DNA of 64,000 bases from Haliclystus octoradiatus (taxonomy: Eukaryota; Cnidaria; Staurozoa; Stauromedusae; Haliclystidae). This document shows positions 10,901-55,549 of this stretch, in pieces; position 1 is the first letter of the stretch; every line of letters starts with the position of its first letter. Both the position numbers and the translations under genes were made by a program. The stretch spans positions 27,666,445 to 27,730,444 of the forward strand of contig OU744446.1 of NCBI GenBank assembly GCA_916610825.1. Reading direction: 5' to 3'. The notes beneath the pieces were generated by a model that was given only the letters and a program-made list of their open reading frames with translations, was not told the origin of the DNA and did not search any database.

Positions 10901-13900
10901 AGATATGATCGATCTGAATTTCGGTTGCTCTGCCATCTGAGCTAATCCTCCTAAATATTCTAATCCGGTGTCTAAGTAAGAAATCCAATTCTGTATAATG
11001 CAAATCAAAATTGTCTGTAGAAAAATTAGACATCTTCTATGTAACTCTGAATTATGACACACATTTTATTATACAACTTTTATCATGCTACAACCTCTTT
11101 TTATTTCAAAAATTTAATTTAATTTATTGATTGCTTATAATTCAACAATATCCAGATCCGATTTAAATCATGTTCTACATTTATGGATAAAGATCATGTC
11201 ACGATTCCTTCCATAATATGTTTGTAAGATTATAGCAGTTGGTGATTATCTTTCATTACCATACCTTCGTAGCCCTTCTATAAGATATAACTATATTCAA
11301 TCTATGTAATAGATGCATAAATATTCGCTACAATTTCCAATCTGTAAAAGTAAAAAAGATAGTAAATCAACCATTATAAAAAATCACTAAATGAGGTGGA
11401 TGTGTACTACTCTGGTGACAGAACCACAAGCTTATAGATTTCTCAATATTTGTAGCAAAGGTCATAATTCCGATTTACAGTTAAATATTGCTAATATTGT
11501 ACCACAGCCACAGTTGAGTAAATGATACGAAGCAACAGTTGTCTTTAATTTTGATCGCCAAATTTTGTTGGTTACAAGTAGTTTTTCAACTTTTATGGTT
11601 ATTTTAAATAAGCATGGCAACGTCTATGATTGCTAGAGCAGATCTCGATATATGGCTGATTGGCAAATGCAGATGTGACTGAGGATCCCAGAAAGCTTCC
11701 TACTAAACGAAATGTATTACAGTTATACTACCACTTCATCCGTGTTGAAAAATTAAACGCAGCAGATGCAAGGAATGCAGTTGTACATCAAATTTGTGAA
11801 ATATGGAATAAAGCTAGAATTCCAATGGCCCTTTTTCCGGACGCTATTGGAAAAGTTGAAAGAATGTTAGCAAGCTATTGTATAATTCGGCGACATCGCA
11901 GCCGTAAATCTTCAAAACAATTGGAGAATGAACAATTATTTACCGTACAGTTAGATAGTCTGTTTGATGTTGCCCATGAGAATGCGGAAACTTTGCTAAC
12001 AAATAAATATGACTGAGTTTCTCGTTGACCAGAGGACAGTTCGCGTTGGTTACATGGGAAAGGAAGACACTCAATTGTCTGAATTAGAAGAACGAAGGAG
12101 AATCAGAAACGTAAATAGCGATATACCTCATACGCCTATTGAAATGGAAATTGAACAGCAAACTAAGGAGGATAATAGTTTAATAATTTTAGATAGTCAT
12201 TCTGAACATTCAGAAGAAGAAGAAGAAATAGAAGAATATCAGGATATTGAAACTGAAATTGGAACAAAACGAAAGAACAACGACAAACTCAAAGTTATTT
12301 CACCAAAATTGTCATCTGTACTTGACCGAACTAACGTCTCAGACAGAAAGCCCACCTTTTTTGTTGCTGCTGTAGCTAGTGAACTGGCAGGGGTTAATGC
12401 ACAACAAGTGAACTTGTCCAGAAGCACTATACGCAGAGCACGGATTTTAAATAGGATTGAAGAAGCAGCTGACAAAAAAGGCAAGTTTTTAAATAAAAAC
12501 AAAAAAAGCTTCCTTGTTGTTCACTGGGATGGCAAGAAAGTGAAGAAAATGAACTCAAGAAAGTTAGTGGAGCGTCTACCGATATTAGTCACTGGAGAGA
12601 ATGTCGAAAAACTTCTAGCGGCCCCTTCTTTAGAGAATGCAACAGGATTGGTCATGGCTAGTGCAGTACATGCATCTTTATTAGATTGGGAGATAAGTGA
12701 AAACATTATTGACACGTGTTTCGACACAACTGCATCAAGTACTGGCAGGCTCAAAGGTGCTTGCATTTACATTTAAAAAAAACTTGGAAAAGATTTGTTG
12801 TGGATAGCCTTTAGGCACCACATGTATGAGCTTATTGCGTATCATGCTCACAAGAGGTGCTTTGGTCCATCGTCGTCAGGACCAGAAATTTTACTGTTTG
12901 ATAGATTTGAGGCAGCGTGGTGTGAAATTGACCAAACAGATGTACAACCACCATGCCCATTATCATCATTTGATACTACTTATTTAAAAAAACGAAAGAA
13001 AAAAAAAGTCAATCACTTTAAGGGCAGGATTACCCCAGCAATCTAGATTTTCTATTTCTTCATCAATCTGTATCATTTGTTTGCAGTAGGAGCTATGTCA
13101 AAAATAATATTGATTCAAATAAAAAAAATTCAGATATTTGAAATGATGACGTCAGCAAAGATGGCGGGCCAAGAATTTATGGGTCAAGTTCTCTTGAGGA
13201 CTCCTCAAAATCCTTTGGTGGGATCCCCCCTAAAATCACTGCATAAGTTTTGTGGTAACACCAGGATCATTCTGAACTATGAATACAGCTGTGGATAATT
13301 TAATTATCGACAATTTGACAATTTTGAGCAAAAAAATGGTGCGGCATAGCTACGTTTACGTCTTTAACATCTCTATTTCTCTAGTATTGCTGGTAATTAC
13401 AGTTCGAATGTATAACCACATAACAAAGAGTATTCTGCCTAAGTTTGAACCAATTTGTCCAAGTGGTTTTCGAGGAGACCTAAATTTTGTGTTCCCAAAA
13501 TGGCAAAAATTCGATTTTGAGAAAAAGCAACAAACAAATTTAATTAAATATTGACACCTTCTAACTTGACAAATACAGTGTATTTTAATATTTTTTGAAA
13601 TTACAATGTTCATACATGTCATAATACTCAATTTTCATCTCCTAGCAACCCTGGAGCATAATCTTTGTCCCCTCTACTGGTTAACGCCGTCTCCTGTCTT
13701 TTTCGGCGGTCAGCTTTTTGTTGGTCTGACACAACCAAATTTTTCACGCGTTTTGCGTCACTCTCTGCGTAATACTTTTTAGTATAAAAACCGTCATCCA
13801 CCCCAATTAGAGATAATATCTTTAATTTAGCAGACTTTCCTTCGTTATACTGGATTGTTGCTGATGCTGCACCATGTTCTAGCCGCTTGACTCCAACAAA

Positions 13901-16900
13901 TACTTCCTTAGGGCAATATGTCCATATAACGTTGTGGAACGACTCGTTCACATTCTGCGTCCCACCATGAGTACATTTCTGTAGAAGTTCTTTATCAGCT
14001 AATGCAGTGAAAACAGGCTTTATAACTTCCATTACACATTGTGGTAATACAGGTACTGATTTTTTTTTACTTGACTTGACTTGACACCAGTCTCCACATA
14101 ATTCATGTTTTCCTTTGCGGTGGTGATATGTCGCCCATATGGCTTTTTGCATTGCTTTGACACCAGAGTGGCAATGTTTCCTGATGGCAACACCATAATG
14201 GCCCTGTATACGGTGGATGGCCTTCTGGGTCAGTTTACCCTTACCACCAATTCCTTTTGTAAACTTTGCTTTACTGATGGTGAATTTTTTATTTTTAGAT
14301 TCAATGACAGAAGTCATCAATCGCCTGCCCATTCGCTTTTGGATGTGGCCAATACACTCCAATTTGACAATCTCCTGATTTTTGTAGACTTGTGGGATTG
14401 ATTCAGCCAGTTTGTTGAATCCTTTTGAGTCTCCGTCACCCAGGTAACCAGTGAAGCGAAGACCATATTTTTCCTCTGACCGTCTGAATATCCTTCCGAT
14501 GCCTACGTGTTCCATGGCACCAGAAGATCCATCATGGTTTTTCTTACAGGGATGAGTTTTTCCATTGAAAGATTTCTTGGAGCAGACACCACAATAATTG
14601 GAAAGAACTTCATAGTCAATGATTTTGGAAGATTTTCCATTTACTGTTGCAGTGGTCATCACCCCATTTTTGCTAACAAAGCCTCGCTTTTGCCATGTTC
14701 CATCACAAGAGACTGTTATGTCTGTTCCTTTTACTTTTTTACCTCTTCAGCTGCCTTTTGCATGCTTTCAGCTGCGACTAAGTTGAAGCAATTCATTAGT
14801 CTATTTTTGTTCTCGCTCCAATGCGGGGAAGATATTGGCTGAGGGAGTGTAGGTCTACAATTGCACATTCGTTCATTATTTGCCTGTCGATCATTAAGAA
14901 TTTTGTTGTTGTGGTTGTTTATGATTTTTCCTATGTTGTCCATGCATCTGTAGCTGACTTTCATAGTGTTCTTATTGAAAATCTTGCTGAGTCTATGATT
15001 TTCAGGGAAGTGTTTATTAATAAGCTTTAGGAATATTTTTGCAATGTTGGTGAGGACGTTCTTGCTTAATGGTGGGTTAAACCATGTAATTTGCCTTCTT
15101 CTGTTACTTCTTCCAGTAGACGTTTTATTACTACGGCGGTTGTATTCAAGTTCTGTGTTGTACCCGCTTTCCTTTAGAGCCTTTTCATAAATAGGTTTGG
15201 CGCGGTTGAATTCATCATTGCTTAAAGATAGATCGCTTATTCTTTGATTGATAGCGCGTTGAAGTTGTTTAATAATTAATGGTGGATGATTTGATTTTGA
15301 GTTGATGTACAGAGGGGTGTTATTAGGTTTTCGGTAAGATTTATATGAGCCATTAGTGAAATTTAGCGTAACATCTAAAAAATTAGTGATTTTGAGGTTG
15401 GATTCAATAGAGATTTTTAGACCATTGTCTTTTGGTTATTACTTTCTTTAATTTTTCTGCTTTTGGCCCAGTATTTTATGGGTGATATTAGTAAGTGTGA
15501 TGTTATTCTGTCTATGATTGAGAGCCAACCAAGACGACTACGCATCTCAGAGACAGGGGTGCGATAATCACAACGAAGAACTGCCCTCATCCCTCTGTTT
15601 TGTACTCTCTGGAGGTGATCAAGATGTTGCTGTTTGCAGTTCCCCCATTCAACAGCACAGTAATCAAAATGAGGCAAAACAACTGAATTATAAACTAAGG
15701 AGACTGTATGTTGGGCTATATAACATCGAATGTATTTCAATACACCGATGCCTCTATTTATCTTGCTAGTCATGGCAATGACATGGTCATCAAATGATAT
15801 GCACTGATCAATTTCCACGCCTAGATATTTTAAACGGGCTACATTGTCAATATAGTCATTATTCACAGTTATATCAAAGTTTCGTGAGTTTTGCTTTTTT
15901 TAGATTTGGTTTAGTACCTATGGCCATACAGTTTGTTTTAGATACATTCAAACTCAATGTATTTGAACACAGCCATATATATATTATTTAAATCATGTGT
16001 TAGTAGTTTTTCAATTTCGGTTATAGCTTTATTGGCAACGTATAGAAGAGTGTCATCAGCATAAGGAATTCTTTACAGTATCACAAATGTTGCTTATATA
16101 AATTAAAAAGAGAAGCAGTGCATTGAAGCAGGCAAGTTTAGCATTTTTTTATGTACCGTGTAACGTGAAAGTTATAAAAGATCTAAACCTTTCTCATGAT
16201 ATCTTCAATGTCTTTCAGATTATTATTTTTATTTTTTGCATTTAAAGAACTTCGAACAACCAGCAGCCTTTTCTTTGTTTTGTTGTGTTGATTATAAAAA
16301 ACGAGGCTGAACTTCTCGAAAGTGACGTCAGTGACTTAAACTCTTTCAGCTTCTCTATACCAGCTACAACCCTACAATTTGATAAAACATTTTCGATGTC
16401 TTCATCAATTACTAATTTTAATTGTTCTAAGATCACCAGGTAGATTGTTCCAAACTTTTGACCCATAAATTGAAAATATTGACTGCCCATAATCTGTTTT
16501 ATGAAGTGGCAACCTAAACAGATTTTGGTTATTCCCTTTTGTAGAATTTTTCCAATTAAAGTTAATTCATTTTCCAAATAAATTGCAGTTTGTTTTTGTA
16601 AACATTTAATAATTAAATGTGATAGTTCTAAACCTATTAACTGTTGGAAAGGTAGCCAACCATATCTAAACTTAAATTGGTAAAACTAATACATTTTTCA
16701 TACCACTGATCGACCTGCTACGGCCATTAAACACTCCATTCTTAGTTTCTGTGTAGTTAATGGTTCACATGCAGGTAAATAGTATATCACAAGTGGCCAA
16801 ATGTAAGTTTTTAGTCACATTTTCTTGATTTTTTGTGCAACATATTTACTTGCATTTTGTATAAAAAACAAAGCGATAATTAACTTATGACATTGGTTGT

Positions 16901-19900
16901 TGACACATAGTTCGATTTTATCAAGTTTTGATTATACTTTGATTCCTTCCTAACAGTTTTACATTTGTGGCTTCATTGAGTGGTAGTTGCTATCATAACA
17001 TTGGTTTTATTGGCATTAAGTTGCATTCGATTCTCGTGACACCAAACTGATAATTAATAGCTCATAATCAATTGCCATAGCAACCACCTGAAAAAGTGAG
17101 TCATCTTGCGACTGGCTTGATTCTAACTAACATAAAATCAACATTTCAGGCACATTTAATGACTAAATTGGTTTTTATAGCAAATTAGAATAGTTTTTAC
17201 AAACTATAATTTCAATATTAACCACATAATCTGAAAAGGTTAGGCCTACACTTTCGAAAATATTTGCTGATTGCATACTTTATAGATATCCCCTTATATT
17301 ATCTTGATGCAATGTATTATATCATGCTATGACATGTAGGCAGATATGTAGGCAAACTTTTGATTGTTCTGGCTTTAAAGGCCTGGTCAAAATTAACATA
17401 AAATGGTGTCAAGTGATCTGAAGGGTCTATGGGATCGGTACAGTAGCCTGCAAAGCAGCGCATGGACCTGGTCTGATATTTTAAAAGGCTTAAAAGGTGT
17501 GTTCACAGCTCTGATCCACTACGTCGAGCAATGACAATACTGCCTGGTCATGTAATATATGTAATACAAACTGGCGCGGGAGTTATTCGAACGTATCGAT
17601 ATGTTAACATCTAAAATTTACATAAATTTTTAAATTTACTTTCATCGTCATCTTCAACAGTTGAACTACAGCTAGAATATTCAAATTCACTACTTTTTGA
17701 AGAAAAAGAGCTGTCTTCTGGTTCAGTGAGCTTCAGACTTAAGCTAAAAACTTTTTGTTAGTGAAGCAGGACGACACTTGTAGAATACTTGTTCAGAACT
17801 ATAGAGGAAATTAGCAATAATTAATAATCAAAAGTAAAAACAAAACAAAACAAAACAAAACAATTGTTAGCTTCAAACAAAACTGTCAATTATGTTTCCT
17901 TAATTTTAGAAGTTCAAGCTCAAATATTGTGCATGTTGTAATGTAGATCTCTAGCACACTGTAATTACACATGCACATAGAGATAGAGCCTGAGAACAGA
18001 TTTCCGCTGTGGAAGATTTACACAATTGTTAGGTTATGGATGCAAGCATAGGCTGTGTGGTATTTTTGAGATTGTTTGTTGAGTATCAAGACATTTCTAG
18101 TCAGTTTGATGATTCGTCATAAATATTTTTCATGATTATTCATAACTATGCCTCTGTACTGCAAATTGGAAATGCAAATAATATGTTTCCAGAGAAAAAA
18201 AATGGTAGAACAGCAATCCACGTAACAACAAAGGCAACTAGGAGCCTTAGCACAACCATGATCAGACTGATTATACTGAACTTTACAATCAAGCCATCCT
18301 GCACTCACACACCTCATATTTTGAATGCTACTAATATCATTGTATTTTTGGCAGATATTCTGTTAAGGATAAACAGTTTTCTTAGGGGTCGAGGTACACC
18401 TCAAGTCAAATTCTTGAATGAAATGATTTGTCATAAAGCTCAGCTGGCTGATGTTAAGCTATATCTAAAAATCAATCTCTTGTATTATAAACACGAGAAT
18501 TGAGAACATACAATAATCTGATCGAAGTATCAAAGTTATAAAACGAGAATTTACATGGTGTAATAACTTCATTTTGATCCAGTGATACAATTGGATTCTC
18601 AATACTCCCTGCACATTCTTTCATTCTCCAGTATTCTTGAATCAAGTAAATAGCAATTTAAGAATCAGTCAGAGACACTGTTCTCTGATCTTCCGCCTTG
18701 CAACTTCTCCACAATTCATAAGCTGCTTGTCGAAAATGAACTGTCTTTCGTGGTCCACATTTCTTTGCGCGTCCTGAATCTTCATCAGATCCCCCTTTTT
18801 GCCTCTGTAACTTCTTAAACCATTTGATAAGGAACTTGAGAAAGATGGAGATGAATCCATGTTGATTTTACAAATACAACTCACTAAAATCACGAGTGCG
18901 TGCAAAGGAGACACAAATGTCTGCTGTCTATCGTGAAAGCAAGTGATTGAAATCTGGGTCCAGATTTCAAAGACAAAAATATGCAAAGGCTGCTGGTCAT
19001 TATATGGTCTTTAATCAAGCGTTTTCTATGCAACTTCTTTTTAAACCAGGCCAGATACATTTTAATTCGTAAATATGATAGTTTACTTAACTATTTGATG
19101 TTCTATTACGAACGGGTGAAAGACGTCACCATGGAAACATCAATGGAATGTAGCCTTCAAGTTTTCTTTAGTTTGTAACTCCTTGTTTATTTCCATATAA
19201 AGACCACAACAGAGGCTGTCACGGTTCTGTGATGAAGATGTGTTAGAGACTGTTTGCATCTAGCTCATTCGTATAACGCAGAGGTGCGCTTTCTGCATTA
19301 TGTTCATTGTTAGTGTTCTTGGACTGTACGAATCTAATACAGTGGCGATAATTTGTTCAAATCACATTATTACCACTGAATCAGAAAACCAAATCAAACA
19401 CATTGAATTCTCTGATACAGTCTATTGAAAATAACACATAATGTACAATATCAATATAATTTACATAAAGTAATTAATAAACAACTGAACAATTCAATAA
19501 CACAAACTTGCCTAATTTAGTTTGATTTTATCTGTTTTAATGTAAAGTATCTTTTCTCATTTTAATCACATGGCTATAATTTAGCTACCATTGACCAGCC
19601 TCCCTTTAACACATACATAAGAAGTTTGTAAGAGGCTATAATTTGAACGATATTTGAACAAAACACTCCTCCCTATTCAAAACTACTGATTTTATCGATA
19701 TTTTGGCAAATATTATGCTATATACTATTTAACTTTCTCCGTCAATAAGTAGTTCACAGCTGTGCTGATCAATTGCATTCAATTCTTTACCAGTTTCCAG
19801 TCAGGCATAGCTTGTGGATGGGACAGTCATATTCACCATTACGAGTTTTCCATTCAACTTTTCGAACATGTCCATAATCTTCAGGATACGTTTTCAAAAC

Positions 19901-28900: not shown

Positions 28901-31309
28901 CCTTTGCTGATGATCTCCACCTGTCTTTTAATTTCAAAGTTTCTTTGACCTTGTGTTTACCATTTGAAACCTGAACACAGTTGTACTTAATTAAAACAAC
29001 ATCTGAATTTAATTGGAACAGTTATCATGTAAAAGATCTGTAGACTATAAAGCTTGCTGATCAATTAAGATAAACAAAGTCTGCTTTTCTCAATGTCGGA
29101 AAATCTTGTTACTGTAGCTATTTAATAGTAGAGAATAACTCTTAATGCCTATTAGTAGTTCATGTTTATATGAGTCGACTGTTCTGCGTGCAATACAGTT
29201 AATGTGTGTCGTTAGTAATAGTCAGTTAATAAATCTGAGCCGTTTCTCATGACTTAATTGCATTAATATTCCTTCTGATTTGCATTTACTCTAGCTCCGT
29301 GTCTTAGAAAGAATGTCATCACCTTTTACCGAACTTCATCGAACACTTTTCAAAGACCTTATCAAACTGGGTACAAGTGTATATACTGAGGTGAATTTAT
29401 ATTTATAACTTGCCAACAATTGAACTGTGCAGGAAACGTGAATATGTTCATGAATGTCATTTGTATTGGTCATAATGCATGTATTGTATCAGAATCTAAT
29501 ACCTTATAATTAACATCTCCAATGATATGTTTTGCTTTGTTTTCATTTATATATATGTCTTTATTGGCAAAAAATTGAAAATATTTACTAAATGGATACA
29601 CGTATAGTCTTTAGGAAAAGAAACTAATACAATGCGGTTTATATACTATATATATACATTTAATATAAAATTGAGACAAAGATGAGGCAAAGCCTTTCCG
29701 TAACTCCAAGTTTCACGTGTTTATTTCACGATCATCAGACGGTATACTAAAAGATTAAAAAACATACTGCTATACTCCTGTTAACATAAATAAAACGCAA
29801 TACATGCCATTCTCCTAATACAAAGGTTTTTATTTGCTATTGTTGGGTCTATTGTCACATTTAATTACAGGATTTAAAATTTCTTAAGTAAAACTTATTC
29901 TCGTGTCGGCATTTTGATATCAGTTCCGATCTTTTGTTAAGTAAATTAGATAAATGTGATGTTATTATATGGTATTTTTCAGTAAGACATAAGTTGCATT
30001 TTTTAGACATATTGCTGTAGGCGTTAGCTTTAAACACGCCACGCAAACGACGCATCATCATTCAAACACAAAAAAATACAAAAATAAAACGGAACTTTCA
30101 AAGCTTATATGGAATCTCAAGGAAAATAACACAGATTTTAATGTCCTAACGCCTACAGTAATATGTCTAGAAAATGCAACTTATGTCTTACTGAAAAATA
30201 CCATATAATAACATCACATTTACCTAATTTACTTAACAAAAGATCGGAACTGATATCAAAATGCCGACACGAGAATAAGTTTTACTTAAGAAATTTTAAA
30301 TCCTGTAATTAAATGTGACAATAGACCCAACAATAGCAAATAAAAACCTTTGTATTAGAAGAATGGCATGTATTGCGTTTTATTTATGTTCACAGGAGTA
30401 TAGCAGTATGTTTTTTAATATTTTAGTATACCGTCTGATGATCATGAAATAAACACGTGAAACTTGGAGTTACGGAAAGGCTTTGCCTCATCTTTGTCTC
30501 AATTTTATATTATGCTCTGTTTTAACCAACATTGAGCACTTTCACATATATGTGTTTTACTTTATATTACATTATTATATATACATTTAATATATAATAA
30601 TATACTATTTTTGAACCAATAGGTACGCATCAAGGCTCAGAAAGTGTTATCAAACAGTTATGATAAATTTGATTATTCAGCACGGAGTATGCTGCCATTT
30701 GTAATTGAAAAACTCAAGCAAGACCCAAACACGTCACATGAGGAATTTAAGGTACTATCAAGTTATTAGAACACGCAAAATGATTAAATATAAATATTCT
30801 TCATGTTGTTTTTCATTTATGATGGATTTGTTAATGGCCAACTATAAGCAGGAATCTGACTTCAGACTCAAGTCCAATGTTGTTCTTTTCTCAATGCAAA
30901 AATACATATTCGCTCAGACAGCTGTTGTTGTTTGTGTGAATAATCTTTGAAATAAAGTAGAAATCCAGAGCATATTATAACTAATCAAAACAATATGAAT
31001 ATTGACTGAAAAGTTTCAACAGGTCGTTACTCTTTCATATTCATTATTTTAACAATTGTTTATTGTAACAGATTGTGTGATATGTGGTAGGATGTGATGT
31101 GGCCTTGCCGAAGTAATCAGATCTTTTAGTAATGACTGTTTTATTCATTCTGACAGGGAGCACTTTACATGCTGTGTGAGTATCGGATGATGTATTTAAT
31201 AACGCATTACTGGGAAGTCATGGTTGATGTATGGCCACTGATAATTAAGGTCAGTCAAGTTAGATAAGTTCTCACGCTACAGTACGATATATGCAATACT
31301 TTCAATATA

Positions 31310-31363
<54 letters not shown>

Positions 31364-34300
31364 TTGATTTAATGAATAAATAAATTTATTTATTAAGAGC
31401 AAAACATCAATATAGTGCTCAATACCGGTAAGCAGAGCTGTATAGATATAAAATAAGAAAAGAGACGTTTTCTCCGTTACTCGAAGTTTCGCGCTGTAGC
31501 GCTCCTCAGACGGTTTTATTCATATGAATAAAACCGTCTGAGGAGCGCTACAGCGCGAAACTTCGAGTAACGGAGAAAACGTCTCTTTTCTTATTTTATA
31601 TCTATATGTATATATATATATATATATAATAAAGTAATTGTGTGGGCAAAACATCAATTTGAGTGCTCAATGCTAAAAGCAGAGCAATATAAATAGTAGA
31701 TCAAAGATCACAAGTTTATTCCGTTACTCTGAGTTTCGCGTAAAGACGCTCTTCAGACGGTTTTATTATAATCTATATATTTAATAGTCTTACTTCTTTA
31801 TGAATAAAAGTACCTACTCCTCCCAATCTATTTATGACAATAGTAAAATTGTCAGTATTGCATTAACTACTCAATCTTACTCAAGAGTTTCAGCAAAACA
31901 TGTTTTTTCCAGCAATTCCATCAGCCATTGAAGGCAATCAAAATTATTTAAATGCTGCACATACCTCTAACGAATGCTTTATTTCTACATAATAATAATA
32001 ATATACTTAATTTTAAAATAACCTCGTATCCTACTGCAATGATGAAAAAAAATACTGTATACAGTTACGTGTTGGTATGTTTAACAGGATTCCAAGACGA
32101 CCGCTTATATATGTATTTACATGTAGTAAGATTATTTTTTTGTATATGTAACAGATATATATATTAAACATGTCAAAATAAGTACTTTTTGGCTAAGCTG
32201 GGAAGGTCCTTTTCCGTTGATGAATTTTTGAAGCAAGGTCTAGTTGAATTTAAATTAGTGATCCTATTATCGCTTGCTTTTAATAATTCGTTGAACATCA
32301 AGGCTCCGACGCGAGTGATTGAGCGCTTCCCCCTTACTTTTTAATGCTTCTTCTGGCTGTTGCTGATTGTGTCCTTCCTTCAACGCTTGTAAATAACGAT
32401 TGTAAATATTCAGGTAGTAGTTTTGAGCAAGCGTCATTACACATCAACATAAGGGATGTCAGTGATTGATGGTGGATAGTGTCGAAATGAATACCAACTG
32501 ACTCCAGTTCTTTCCCATAGCTAACTTTGCCGAGAGTTTGCTTAACGGATGCTTTAGGCATTTGTCTAGGCGATTTTGGAGATGCTTATCTAATGTAGTA
32601 GTTAGTGTGCCACAGTATCGAAAATGTGGTAAGATTAAGGATTTAATCAATTCTACCATTGATTTGGGAGATATAAAATGCCTCAGTTCTGATAATGCGG
32701 ATGATGTGCTATTTACTTTTCGGCATGTGGCAGCTACAAAGTCCTTCATGGAAAGCTGATTTCAATAATTACTCCAAGTACCTTTATGCTGTTTTCAAAG
32801 TTTAATATATGACCATTTACAATTAGCTCTGGGTTCTTTTTACCAAATGAAATGCAATGCGTTTTGGTTTCATTAATGGTGAGCATATTGATTTCAAACC
32901 AGCCGTATGTAAGCTGTAGTTCTCCGTTCAGTATAATTGACATTATGTCGATGACTGCATGTTGGTAGTATGTGGTAGTGTCTTCTCCGTATTGGCAAAA
33001 AATAGCATGTTCCAGGGTAGAGGAAAGATCGTTTTTGTAAATATTGAAAATGGGCAGGCCCCAACATGCTACCTTGTGGAACGCCATATTGTGTGGCTTC
33101 ATATGATCATATATTACCCTCCACTTTCACCCTTTGTCTCCTGTCTTGAAGGTAGTTGCAAATAAGCTCAATTGAAGATGCGTAAAATCCATACATTGTG
33201 AGCTTGAGAAGCAGCATCTGATGGTAGACTGAGTCAAATGCCTTGCTGAGATCTAAAGCGATTGCAGACACTTGTAGACCGTTGTCTACAGACTTGCGCC
33301 AATCTTCTGTTGCCTTGATGAGAGCTGTTTCGCATGAGTGATGTTTCAGATAGCCTGACATTGTCTGAGACCAAAGTTCGTTGCTTGACATGTGACTACT
33401 TATCTGCTTGTTCAGAAGCCGCTCGGACATTTTGTAGAGTGTGACTAGCAGCCTAATCGGACGATAATTGGACATGCAATATGGATCTCCGTGTTTGTAG
33501 ATCTGAGTCAGTAGTCCATCATCATCATCATCATTTATTCAGAAACCTTCAAGTTATACATAACTTTTTTTCAAAGGACTGATTTCCAATGAGCAGGAAA
33601 TGTTTTCAATTCAATACATTTGTTAAATAGCTCAGCTATAGTCTCAGGTATGAGATCAGATACAGAAGTAAGAATCCAATTAGGCAAGCAATCTTCTCCT
33701 GGTGTCTTGACTTTAAGATGATTTAATATGGTCTTTACTTCAATGGCATTGGTTTCAAGAACTCAAATAATGGAATATTTTCATCCGTAAGTTTGAGAGT
33801 ATTTAGATACTGATACCGGTAATGCAAAGCAACTAGAGGCTTACAATTTGATGAAATGTTGGCAAATGTCCTGTTCATTATGTCTGCAACAGCGTGGGCG
33901 ACTTTGTGAGTTTCCCATCTTCGTAAAGTTGTATTCCATTGGATGATGATTTTTTGCTAGGTAGTCATGCAAAAATTGTTCGCCAAAAGTTGTTCTTGTC
34001 CCTTTCTTTTAAGATAGAATGCATATGCCTCTTTATCTCCACTCGTCATGTTTTTGAGGCAATTTTTTTTCCTCAATGTATACAAATTGGTTTCACAATC
34101 TACTTGTAATTAACAGATAATGGAATTTGACAGGTGTAGCATTTTATACCTAGTTTATATGTTCTAAATATATATATATTCAGTGTGACCCGCTCGAGTC
34201 GGAATTTCCATCTATTTCACTTGTATTAATCCAATTTTACACTTATCAGAAATAATATAACAAAGAGATTTGACCCTCTAATAAAGTCTTAATAGCAGGA

Positions 34301-52845: not shown

Positions 52846-53746
52846 ATTATGATCATAACGAATCTATCTTCAACTATGAAATCCTAAAAAATTTTATAGA
52901 GTAATGAATATTATTATGAATGTTATTCTCACGTCATTTATCAACGAGTTTAAAAAATACGTATAATTTTATTATTTTATAAAATAATTCAAGCCTGTTT
53001 ATAAATGTCTGTAGGTATTGCAGAGGTTTATGCAAACAATGCTACTGGCTATTAATTATTTAACATTTATACTCATTATTATGCGCGTTACAAAATAATC
53101 ATTATTGCTGTTTCATATCTCAAATGATAATAGATCCATTCTTATGTATTACTTCAAGAACGTTGAGCAACAACCTATTTTTATCACAATACTTATATAT
53201 ACTGTCTATCTCATTCGATTTACTTTACTTACTTGTGTTGCTTATGGTGCTCGAATAATTCCAATTTTATCACTCTCTTTATTGAGGGGGTATGTAGAGG
53301 GGATACAGCAGCTATTATTATCTAAGATTCCCGCTACCAGCTATATACCATATTTTATTATTTTGCCTATTTAAATCTAAACCATAACAAAGTACAAATG
53401 CAAACTAATAGCAATATTTTCATGATAGCAATAGGTCGTGTTTCATTGGCTGATAAGACTTCATCAATTGATATGCTGCAGGCTGGTAGACCGTTGCTTA
53501 GACCGTTGCATAAACATGCATAAACACAGCTGAGTTTTTGTTTACTTATAATTACACCTTGGTTACACATTTCTATTCTAAGGTGTTTGTTATTGTCTCC
53601 AAATATCAACCTAAAGTACACTTGTTTTTTATTAGTGTTTATTAGCACTACACTATAAGGTATTTCTAGAGCAGGCTCTGAATACACTTACCAACATATC
53701 AAAATCGTAAAAGTAAAGTGAGACTTGGGCAAGTCAAGCTCTGAAA
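52846..53746. other. Intergenic region PSME4-PDE12
   Basis: About 900 bp holds the PSME4 3' UTR and the presumed PDE12 promoter. I see no AATAAA close to the PSME4 stop and no convincing TATA box before PDE12. ORFs at 53105-53374 (+) and 53367-53687 (-) lack any motif and are treated as chance. Confidence 0.5.
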
Positions 53747-55549
53747 ATGTTATCAACAAATAAAAGCGCGGGAATATCCTCTCATTGGTGTTGCAGTCTA
53801 GAAGTGATAAAAGAGGCTTCTTCAATATCTTGCATTTCTGTAGTGAAATATTCAAAAATGGAGTCTAAAAAGATATTATATGCAATCGTAAAACTGGTAG
53901 AAAATAGCACAAACTTATCGATATCATTCGACCATCTTGGCAAATCCCGAACATTTTGTCGTCAGATAGAAGAAACTGTTGGAGATACATTAAAGCGGGT
54001 TGCGTTAAACATTAACAAACAGCTTGGAGTAAGTAGGAAGAAATCCAAAAAAGATCAAACTTTGCTAGGTCCATCAACGTCTGGACAGGCTCCAATACCA
54101 AATGTATATCTTATTGATAATTCCACTAGTGAAATACCCACAAAAACAATTAACAAAAATGCCTGGAAAACAGGAAATACTCTTATGATAAATGAAACAG
54201 CTTATAAAGTAGCCTTAAATCCTCCAAATATTTTGAGATTGGAACTCCCCAAAGCAATTATGTCATGTTTTCCAATTACGCCATTAATAGATTATGAATT
54301 TGCATCTTTAGAATCATCCAAACTACAATGGTATGTGAAAGAAAATAAAAATTGTGATGATGTAGAATGGCTTGCCAAAGCTAATGGGATGAAATTTATT
54401 CCTGGAAATGATTTGATTGGTTTTTATGTTAAACTAAAATGTTATGCTGGGAATGAAACTGAAGAATGGCCAATTCCCCAGGAAGTTATAAGTACTGAAC
54501 CTATTACATGTGGTCCAGGGTATTGTCCGTTTGATCAACGACATTTAATTGCTGGTACAATTACTAATAATGATACAATTAGGATAATGTCCTATAACAT
54601 CCTTGCTGACTGTTATGCATCGTCAGATTTTGCACAACAGCATTTATTCTCTTATTGTCCACAATATGCTCTTGATATGACGTATCGTAGACAATTACTT
54701 CTCAAAGAAATAACAGGGTTTAATTCTCATATCGTATGCCTTCAAGAATGTGATGAAAAACATTTTGATCATTTCTTCAAACCTGCTATGAATGGATTTG
54801 GCTATGAAGGTCTATTTTCAGGTAAAGCTGGAGAGACACCCGAAGGTGAAGCATTGTTTTATAACAAAAATAAATTTACATTCATCAAAAGCTCAAGGAT
54901 TGTTTTCAAAGAAGCAGTACATACAATAGACAACTTTCATCTTATGAATTTCTTAGATTCTCAACCAGATATGAAAGAGGAGCTTTTAAGAAAATCAACA
55001 ATTGGTCAAATTAATCTTCTTCGAGATAATTATTCATCGAAATATATATTTATTTTGAATACTCATTTATATTTTAGGGCCAATTACGATCATTTCCGTC
55101 TTATACAGATGTATACATTAATTGAAGCACTTAATAAATTTATCCTTGAGCAAAAACTAGAAAGCAATAGTTATGCTATCATTGTATGCGGGGATTTTAA
55201 TAGCTTACCAGATTCCGCCGTCATTGAATTTTTATCTACTTCACAAATATTATGCGATCATCCTGTGTGGAAGTTTTGTGATCCTGATCTGGTTGAAAAC
55301 TTTGCTGGTATATCTCTTCAACTTCCGTTCAATTTAAAAAACTTTTCTGGTTTTCCTGATTTCACAAATTTAACAAATGGCTTTAAAGGGACGCTAGATT
55401 ATATTTTTGGTAATAATAAATTGATAGTGAATGGTATTGTTCCCATAAGTGATCAAAAAGAATTAGAAACTTATAACGCACTGCCGTCTGTTGTATCACC
55501 ATCAGACCATGTGCCGTTAATTTGTGATCTTGAATGGCAATCTAATTAA
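53747..55549 (+). CDS. PDE12: PDE12, 2'-5' phosphodiesterase / mitochondrial poly(A) deadenylase, single exon
   Basis: This 600-residue protein is close to the 609 residues of the human enzyme. PDE12 removes 2',5'-linked oligoadenylate and short poly(A) tails in the mitochondrial matrix. The C-terminal EEP nuclease domain begins at RIMSYNILADCY (catalytic Asn284), then LQECD (metal-binding Glu334), NTHLYF (His440), CGDFNS (Asp483, Asn485), LDYIF and the final SDHVPL (Asp587, His588). All active-site residues are present. The N-terminal half matches the family's less conserved domain (AYKVALNPPN, LELPKAIMSCFPI, CGPGYCPFDQRH). A second in-frame Met is at residue 38; the first 37 residues are uncharged-to-basic, suiting an import signal. 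The absence of introns beside intron-rich neighbours suggests either an ancestral compact gene or a retrocopy. Confidence 0.94.
   Translation: MLSTNKSAGISSHWCCSLEVIKEASSISCISVVKYSKMESKKILYAIVKLVENSTNLSISFDHLGKSRTFCRQIEETVGDTLKRVALNINKQLGVSRKKSKKDQTLLGPSTSGQAPIPNVYLIDNSTSEIPTKTINKNAWKTGNTLMINETAYKVALNPPNILRLELPKAIMSCFPITPLIDYEFASLESSKLQWYVKENKNCDDVEWLAKANGMKFIPGNDLIGFYVKLKCYAGNETEEWPIPQEVISTEPITCGPGYCPFDQRHLIAGTITNNDTIRIMSYNILADCYASSDFAQQHLFSYCPQYALDMTYRRQLLLKEITGFNSHIVCLQECDEKHFDHFFKPAMNGFGYEGLFSGKAGETPEGEALFYNKNKFTFIKSSRIVFKEAVHTIDNFHLMNFLDSQPDMKEELLRKSTIGQINLLRDNYSSKYIFILNTHLYFRANYDHFRLIQMYTLIEALNKFILEQKLESNSYAIIVCGDFNSLPDSAVIEFLSTSQILCDHPVWKFCDPDLVENFAGISLQLPFNLKNFSGFPDFTNLTNGFKGTLDYIFGNNKLIVNGIVPISDQKELETYNALPSVVSPSDHVPLICDLEWQSN

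Follow-up and report, generated by a model that had tools for sequence, protein, structure and literature searches.

The palindrome at the centre of this stretch raises the question of how two outward-pointing ribozyme cores came to be joined back to back without a single intervening base, and what such a structure says about the element that left it. The window, meaning the whole stretch of 64,000 nt that was analysed, belongs to an assembly of 262 Mb in 33 contigs, whose size and gene content suggest a eukaryote. Positions 31441-31606 were identical to their own reverse complement across all 166 nt, as the earlier note had described for a perfect palindrome with 83-nt arms, and no other perfect spacer-less palindrome with arms of at least 12 nt was found in the 64-kb window. 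The evidence set out below points to a single insertion of a Penelope-like element (PLE) as the probable origin, with both target ends primed on a hammerhead-first mRNA and the two cDNAs then joined. Similar insertions recur in the genome and help to show how PLEs insert. The parts of the palindrome and its surroundings are listed here, with ref denoting positions in the element reference.

31441..31606, no strand: perfect palindrome of two 83-nt arms without spacer
31522..31606, plus strand: short, tail-less copy (ref 2380-2470), running from the strong-stop (ATATGAAT...) through the hammerhead to ...TATATCTATA, with TA-rich target beyond
31344..31525, minus strand: long copy (ref 2380-2571), the same unit as the short copy plus a tail, its outer end running into (ATA)n
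31522..31525, no strand: shared 5'-terminal ATAT of the two copies, which overlap by 4 bp where they meet head to head
31534..31573, plus strand: predicted minimal type I hammerhead in the short copy, with cleavage expected 3' of A31569
31474..31513, minus strand: predicted minimal type I hammerhead in the long copy, with cleavage expected 3' of base 31478 (minus strand)
31344..31440, minus strand: 3' tail of the long copy (CAGCTCTGCTTACCGGTATTGAGCAC...)
31597..31628, no strand: TA-rich repeat on the right side, made of the short-copy end and target, which meets the tail end of the lineage-B copy
31616..31767, minus strand: lineage-B PLE copy of the long type, with a hammerhead at 31721-31760

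Each hammerhead of the palindrome reads outward from the centre, and both arms carry CCGT-CTGAGGA-GCGC-TACA-GCGC-GAAA-CTTCGAG-TA-ACGG. The hammerhead pattern matched four times in the window, whereas 100 shuffles gave 0.15 matches on average and never more than 2; one of the four, at 19840-19884, is probably due to chance, since the covariance-model search (E<=5) does not list it. Across the genome, the core pattern gave 3604 matches as opposed to 8 for the reversed pattern. A regular-expression search found 119 instances of the core where 0.05 were expected in shuffles. Rfam 15 returned no hammerhead call over the whole window at the gathering threshold, over 5 kb at E<=5 or for a single arm at E<=10, so that the check with Rfam hammerhead models suggested by the earlier note came out empty; as no Rfam hammerhead model reached its threshold, the motif is referred to as a minimal PLE-type hammerhead and not as an Rfam member. 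The palindrome also matched Rfam miRNA models, but these were hairpin matches under threshold and were rejected.

Nineteen variants from the fetched loci were aligned, and helices I and II were found to covary, with changes on both sides in 5 of 11 pairs and a covariation score of 0.241 compared with 0.149 in shuffles, none of 500 of which scored as high. The 3-bp helix III was invariant among the 19, and 95.2% of the paired cells paired, a figure that is flattered because the alignment leaves out 10 of the 29 distinct variants, including the ones with the largest number of broken pairs and those whose helix III is broken. Since the core and a part of helix I are set by the regular expression used to collect the variants, only the free positions are informative here, and the match of covariance model R1 to the arm is circular, because R1 includes that arm. 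The predicted hammerhead identity thus rests on the invariant core and the covariation, and to that extent the proposal that each arm holds a hammerhead core was borne out. The lowest-energy fold of a single arm differed from the hammerhead fold, and the whole arm folded no better than its own shuffles (z -0.08). For the transcript of the palindrome, a hairpin of -146 kcal/mol is predicted, which would bury the hammerhead and compete with ribozyme folding, in support of the competing folds that the earlier note had envisaged.

Searching the genome for the 83-nt arm, likewise suggested beforehand, gave at least 50 matches, with 40 of 377 candidates scored, and the arm recurred at loci with other flanks. 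Arms faced each other at a distance of at most 30 nt at 40 places, so in this genome the perfect spacer-less palindrome is not the unusual object that it had been taken for, and the TTCATATGAA centre was identical at four of these 40 places, including the window. For closer inspection, 55 merged regions with a total of 212 kb were read, which combined the 50 listed arm matches, the 15 loci listed for the 40 facing-arm places and 20 of 85 further planned regions. Among the first 100 places listed for the core pattern, neighbours less than 1 kb apart were divergent (minus then plus) in 16 cases and in any of the other three orientations in 9, and the 61 neighbouring hammerheads of lineages A and B within 5.2 kb comprised 41 divergent, 13 convergent and 7 in the same direction. 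The interiors of head-to-head pairs ranged from 0 to ~4.4 kb, with the palindrome arms at the outer ends. The palindrome is the extreme case of such a head-to-head pair, in which both copies stop at one 5' position.

The arm was found to be the 3' part of a ~2.57-kb unit bearing a 717-aa frame (locus L032), and at this locus two units stand in direct orientation, 2551 bp apart, with their pLTRs in tandem as in PLEs. The 717-aa frame contains YRDDG, CxC..C....C and NYIGLTE-F-H motifs that are conserved in relatives, and which I take to be marks of a reverse transcriptase (RT) and a GIY-YIG endonuclease; searches of the ORF against Pfam, NCBIfam and PDB sequences returned no domain above chance. 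The unit is considered a putative PLE, an assignment made by architecture and by motifs read by eye: its pLTRs stand both in tandem and inverted, it has a tail and a hammerhead, its targets are AT-rich, and its ORF contains YRDDG and NYIGLTE...F. The link to PLE terminal repeats drawn in the earlier note is supported. The note's description of a short non-autonomous derivative with opposed ribozymes was not supported, as the same arms end head-to-head PLE pairs whose interiors reach ~4.4 kb and include facing ORFs, such as the two 702-aa ORFs that face each other at locus L039. Nor was the retrozyme arrangement of non-coding hammerhead units in direct tandem found here, the arms being inverted and derived from a coding element.

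AT-rich insertion with a target-site duplication, a further PLE feature, was also found: in 18 of 24 pairs, a stretch of 10 nt or more consisting only of A and T was common to both flanks. The palindrome itself sits in a TA run at the tail end of the lineage-B copy, and its own duplication is masked by TA repeats. The window holds a second head-to-head pair, which is laid out as follows.

29661..30512, no strand: second head-to-head PLE pair, of a third lineage, with a short left copy and a long right copy
29698..29742, minus strand: hammerhead of the left copy of this pair, predicted by covariance-model search
30431..30475, plus strand: hammerhead of the right copy of this pair, predicted by covariance-model search
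29649..29667, no strand: left target-site duplication of this pair (TATATATACATTTAATATA), 19 bp
30576..30594, no strand: right target-site duplication of this pair, 19 bp

The arms of this second pair (29661-30027 and 30146-30512) were 98% complementary, and C-terminal coding remnants at 30028-29864 (minus) and 30154-30309 (plus) were ~61% identical to the L032 ORF at the amino acid level, along 52-55 C-terminal residues. Elsewhere in the window, a PLE ORF remnant at 14731-15435 (minus) had 55% amino acid identity to the L032 ORF over 201 residues. The frame at 15417-15899 (minus) resembles the end of a LINE-type RT by eye, with no Pfam match, and the frame at 33110-33538 (minus), a separate LINE-like remnant, matched RVT_1 at E 4e-13. 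A 372-aa frame at 13628-14746 (minus) looks by eye like a transposon-derived protein, and a 610-aa frame at 53717-55549 (plus), with PDE12-like N-terminal and exo/endonuclease/phosphatase domains, is a probable host 2',5'-phosphodiesterase 12 gene.

Comparing the outer ends of the copies revealed a strict rule. Copies mostly ended either at ref 2470 (short) or at ~ref 2555-2571 (long, with tail), and in the fetched loci 36 of 41 head-to-head pairs, with four of the 41 (C2:35.2 Mb) apparently representing one duplicated segment counted four times, had the inverted pLTRs and one-sided tail of PLEs, that is, one long and one short end; none was short/short. The other five were one long/long pair at a complex locus, two pairs with tail stubs and two unclassed pairs; the stubs measured 12-14 nt and occurred in one copy of each pair, the partner being short once and long once. 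At C2:35.21-35.27 Mb (L053-L056), four near-identical lineage-B palindromes lie within 53 kb, three with both flanks in common and the fourth with one, apparently a duplicated segment.

Exact patterns extended this count to the whole genome. Lineage A was represented by 90 long and 54 short places, which formed 33 head-to-head pairs within 5.2 kb, 32 of them long/short and one short/short. For lineage B, 58 short places and 100 of 101 long places were listed, and these gave 37 pairs, 34 long/short and three long/long. Taken together, with 100 of the 101 lineage-B long places listed, 66 of 70 head-to-head pairs had one long and one short end, and in either lineage none of 100,000 label shuffles reached the observed excess. 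In two of the three lineage-B long/long pairs, a short copy followed ~2.4 kb further on in the same direction as the long one, so the outermost ends of these two may again be long and short. A different arrangement was seen at C7:18807269-18807936, where four lineage-B long ends stand in direct tandem within 0.7 kb, possibly a short-unit array, unlike the head-to-head rule.

The inner, 5' ends were then considered. Out of 70 lineage-A hammerheads, 37 continued into the element for all 40 nt examined, 20 lost their match to the reference exactly 12 or 13 nt upstream of CCGT (one of them a mutated long copy, which is no stop), and the remaining 13 had other upstream match lengths; as the sample was selected on full arms or body sequence, the share of such stops is no estimate for all insertions. 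The recurrent 5' start was ATATGAAT at ~ref 2386, and TATATATC, a TATA box, starts 33 nt upstream at ref 2353. Upstream of the stop, the sequence varied by place and consisted of the partner arm, filler or A+T-rich sequence. The strong-stop at ref 2386 is probably the 5' end of the RNA, at which reverse transcription would run off. Both arms of the window palindrome start exactly there, overlapping by ATAT (31522-31525). Lineage-B palindromes are no evidence for the stop, because the search pattern forces the junction. Within pairs, stops tended to co-occur, with eight pairs stopping in both copies, two in one and 14 in neither (Fisher p 6e-5).

The 5' ends also allowed the relation between the two arms to be assessed. 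Among 24 long/short pairs with clear 5' ends, which leave aside 13 of 37 blast-defined junctions that were unclassed, the short copy reached further 5' in 11, by 14-879 nt; in eight of these 11 the excess was at least 34 nt, and alignment spill may account for the three excesses of 14-19 nt. The long copy reached further 5' by more than 10 nt in seven pairs, and in six, among them the window palindrome, the two ends lay within 3 nt of each other. Since the short arm was longer 5' and the long arm longer 3' in 11 of the 24 pairs, neither arm can have been the template of the other in these, and two separately started cDNAs, one per target end, can account for them. Junctions of other types contained filler of up to 53 nt or short overlaps, as in end joining.

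If the two arms of a pair are separate cDNAs, the number of RNAs behind them becomes of interest. Alleles were compared up to ref 2460 in 29 segment pairs with an identity of 95% or more, at 12 sites where three loci or more had the minor allele; position 2466, where only short copies showed A in place of C, was excluded as primer-derived. I found that 45 of 50 within-pair comparisons agreed, five disagreements where 18.2 were expected for random partners, although few pairs contribute to these comparisons, which are mutually dependent. The five disagreements fell into three pairs and concerned the boundary of an A/T run (2100, 2101) and a CpG (2335). With a looser filter (minor allele in at least two loci), 11 of 195 disagreed as opposed to 35.3 expected. 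Two independent RNAs drawn at random from a pool were therefore rejected as the source; because alleles agree within pairs, both cDNAs may derive from one RNA, from the RNAs of one locus, or have been gene-converted, and later gene conversion between the arms could yield the same agreement. Mixed pairs of lineages A and B, sought as proof of two templates, were absent from the 41 pairs (25 AA, 16 BB). At ref 2466, the short copy ends in TATATATATA, not TATATCTATA, in four pairs (C1_23291714, C1_30120400, C2_1064177 and C2_18510193), as if the target's own TA primer had replaced the RNA-derived base. Finally, 86 of 90 exact long copies were intact across the cut site, which suggests that template RNAs are mostly uncleaved by their own hammerhead.

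Under the proposed mechanism, the PLE protein would cut a TA-rich target on both strands, and each target 3' end would prime reverse transcription on sense RNA at an internal start site. Two such sites would exist ~100 nt apart, a "long" one after the tail and a "short" one at UAUAUCUAUA, with one target end using the long site and the other end the short site. In the case of the palindrome, both cDNAs would start on the 5'-terminal pLTR of the RNA and run off the end of that RNA ~12 nt before the hammerhead; their 3' ends could then pair via the self-complementary ATAT, and fill-in would produce a perfect palindrome with hammerheads pointing outward. Perfect ribozyme palindromes are accordingly suggested to arise as by-products when reverse transcription runs off the 5' end of the RNA, and many pairs would join two separately started cDNAs, one per start site, made from one RNA or from like RNAs and united by end joining. 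More tentatively, a single RNA might bridge the cut ends and be primed twice, so that every insertion becomes a long/short head-to-head pair, which I regard as possible but somewhat doubtful. If true, it would explain the long/short rule, the allele agreement and the co-occurring strong-stops, and inverted pairs would be the normal product of PLE insertion and no accident.

The main competitor is self-priming, in which one strand, either the first cDNA or an antisense RNA, would fold back and serve as its own template, leaving an inverted repeat with a palindromic junction. It would produce a palindrome that is perfect and spacer-less, palindromic junctions that recur in the genome and arms with agreeing alleles, and the window palindrome, with its coincident 5' ends, may be compatible with it too. 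However, a fold-back copy cannot exceed its template, and the 11 of 24 pairs with mutually longer arms (eight of them by at least 34 nt) rule self-priming out as the general route; nor does it explain the fixed short end at ref 2470, and it is considered unlikely here. A later inverted duplication of a resident pLTR, by template switching or hairpin repair, would likewise yield identical arms, and inverted-repeat arms are prone to such duplication, but in nearly all pairs counted genome-wide the two outer ends belong to different recurrent types, and copying would not repeatedly yield one long and one short end, which makes this origin highly improbable.

That the palindrome is instead a non-autonomous mobile element moving as a unit might be read from the exact TTCATATGAA junction at four places, yet a common 5' stop plus ATAT already yields this junction, the junctions otherwise vary widely, the interiors form a continuum up to 4.4 kb, and palindromes with outer ends read also show one long and one short end. 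Nothing was found that points to the palindrome travelling as a unit, and the chances of this are small, hardly better than those of a later duplication. An assembly fold-back artefact, which the perfection of the palindrome might suggest, is scarcely credible, because the outer flanks differ on each side and the arm recurs elsewhere with other flanks, at dozens of places with different junctions. Double priming of one insertion, followed by joining of the two cDNAs, remains the preferred origin of the palindrome.

Several of these features are known from other systems. PLE hammerheads, inverted pLTRs, tails and palindromic junctions have already been published (PMC3846280, PMC11167929, PMC7761336, the first and last as far as their available text goes). 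According to PMC7761336, which cites Cervera & de la Pena 2014 and Lunse 2017, the pLTRs of PLEs carry minimal type I hammerheads, in the accessible part of that text at thousands per genome, as here, and usually without non-conserved helix III nucleotides, whereas the 19 variants aligned here have a 3-bp helix III. Metazoan non-LTR retrozymes, in the available portion of PMC7229834, similarly hold type I hammerheads in small repeats, but they are non-autonomous tandem repeats with RNAs of ~170-400 nt, and the palindrome is inverted and derives from a coding PLE.

The Penelope of Adineta vaga, as described in the available text of PMC3846280, shares the head-to-head arrangement, inverted pLTRs, one-sided tail and palindromic junctions, as well as AT-rich targets and direct pLTR-ORF-pLTR units; the word "hammerhead" is absent from the main text of that paper. 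The same source, so far as its text was available, calls the tail optional, in contrast to the one-long-one-short pairs that prevail here, and proposes self-priming on an antisense template for the inverted Penelope structure, a route with which 11 of 24 pairs in the present genome are incompatible. In the literature searched, with its partial coverage, no precedent was found for the one-long-one-short rule, the strong-stop or the test against self-priming. The many near-identical head-to-head pairs form a footprint that can separate models of PLE insertion.

The closest biochemical parallel is Poseidon of Anolis carolinensis (PAc, PMC11167929), which has a similar AT-rich target and a hammerhead near the pLTR/ORF start. 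In purified form, its protein cuts both target strands and extends them, and synthesis starts internally, at two positions on either side of the tail; second-strand synthesis was left for later work. The PAc ORF begins inside the hammerhead, whereas the first ATG of the L032 frame comes after the tail. Uncleaved RNA is the main PAc template, in line with the long copies that are intact across the cut site here. The strict long/short rule is not predicted by the PAc assay, because in vitro the choice of start site does not depend on the strand, whereas nearly every pair in the present genome uses each site once.
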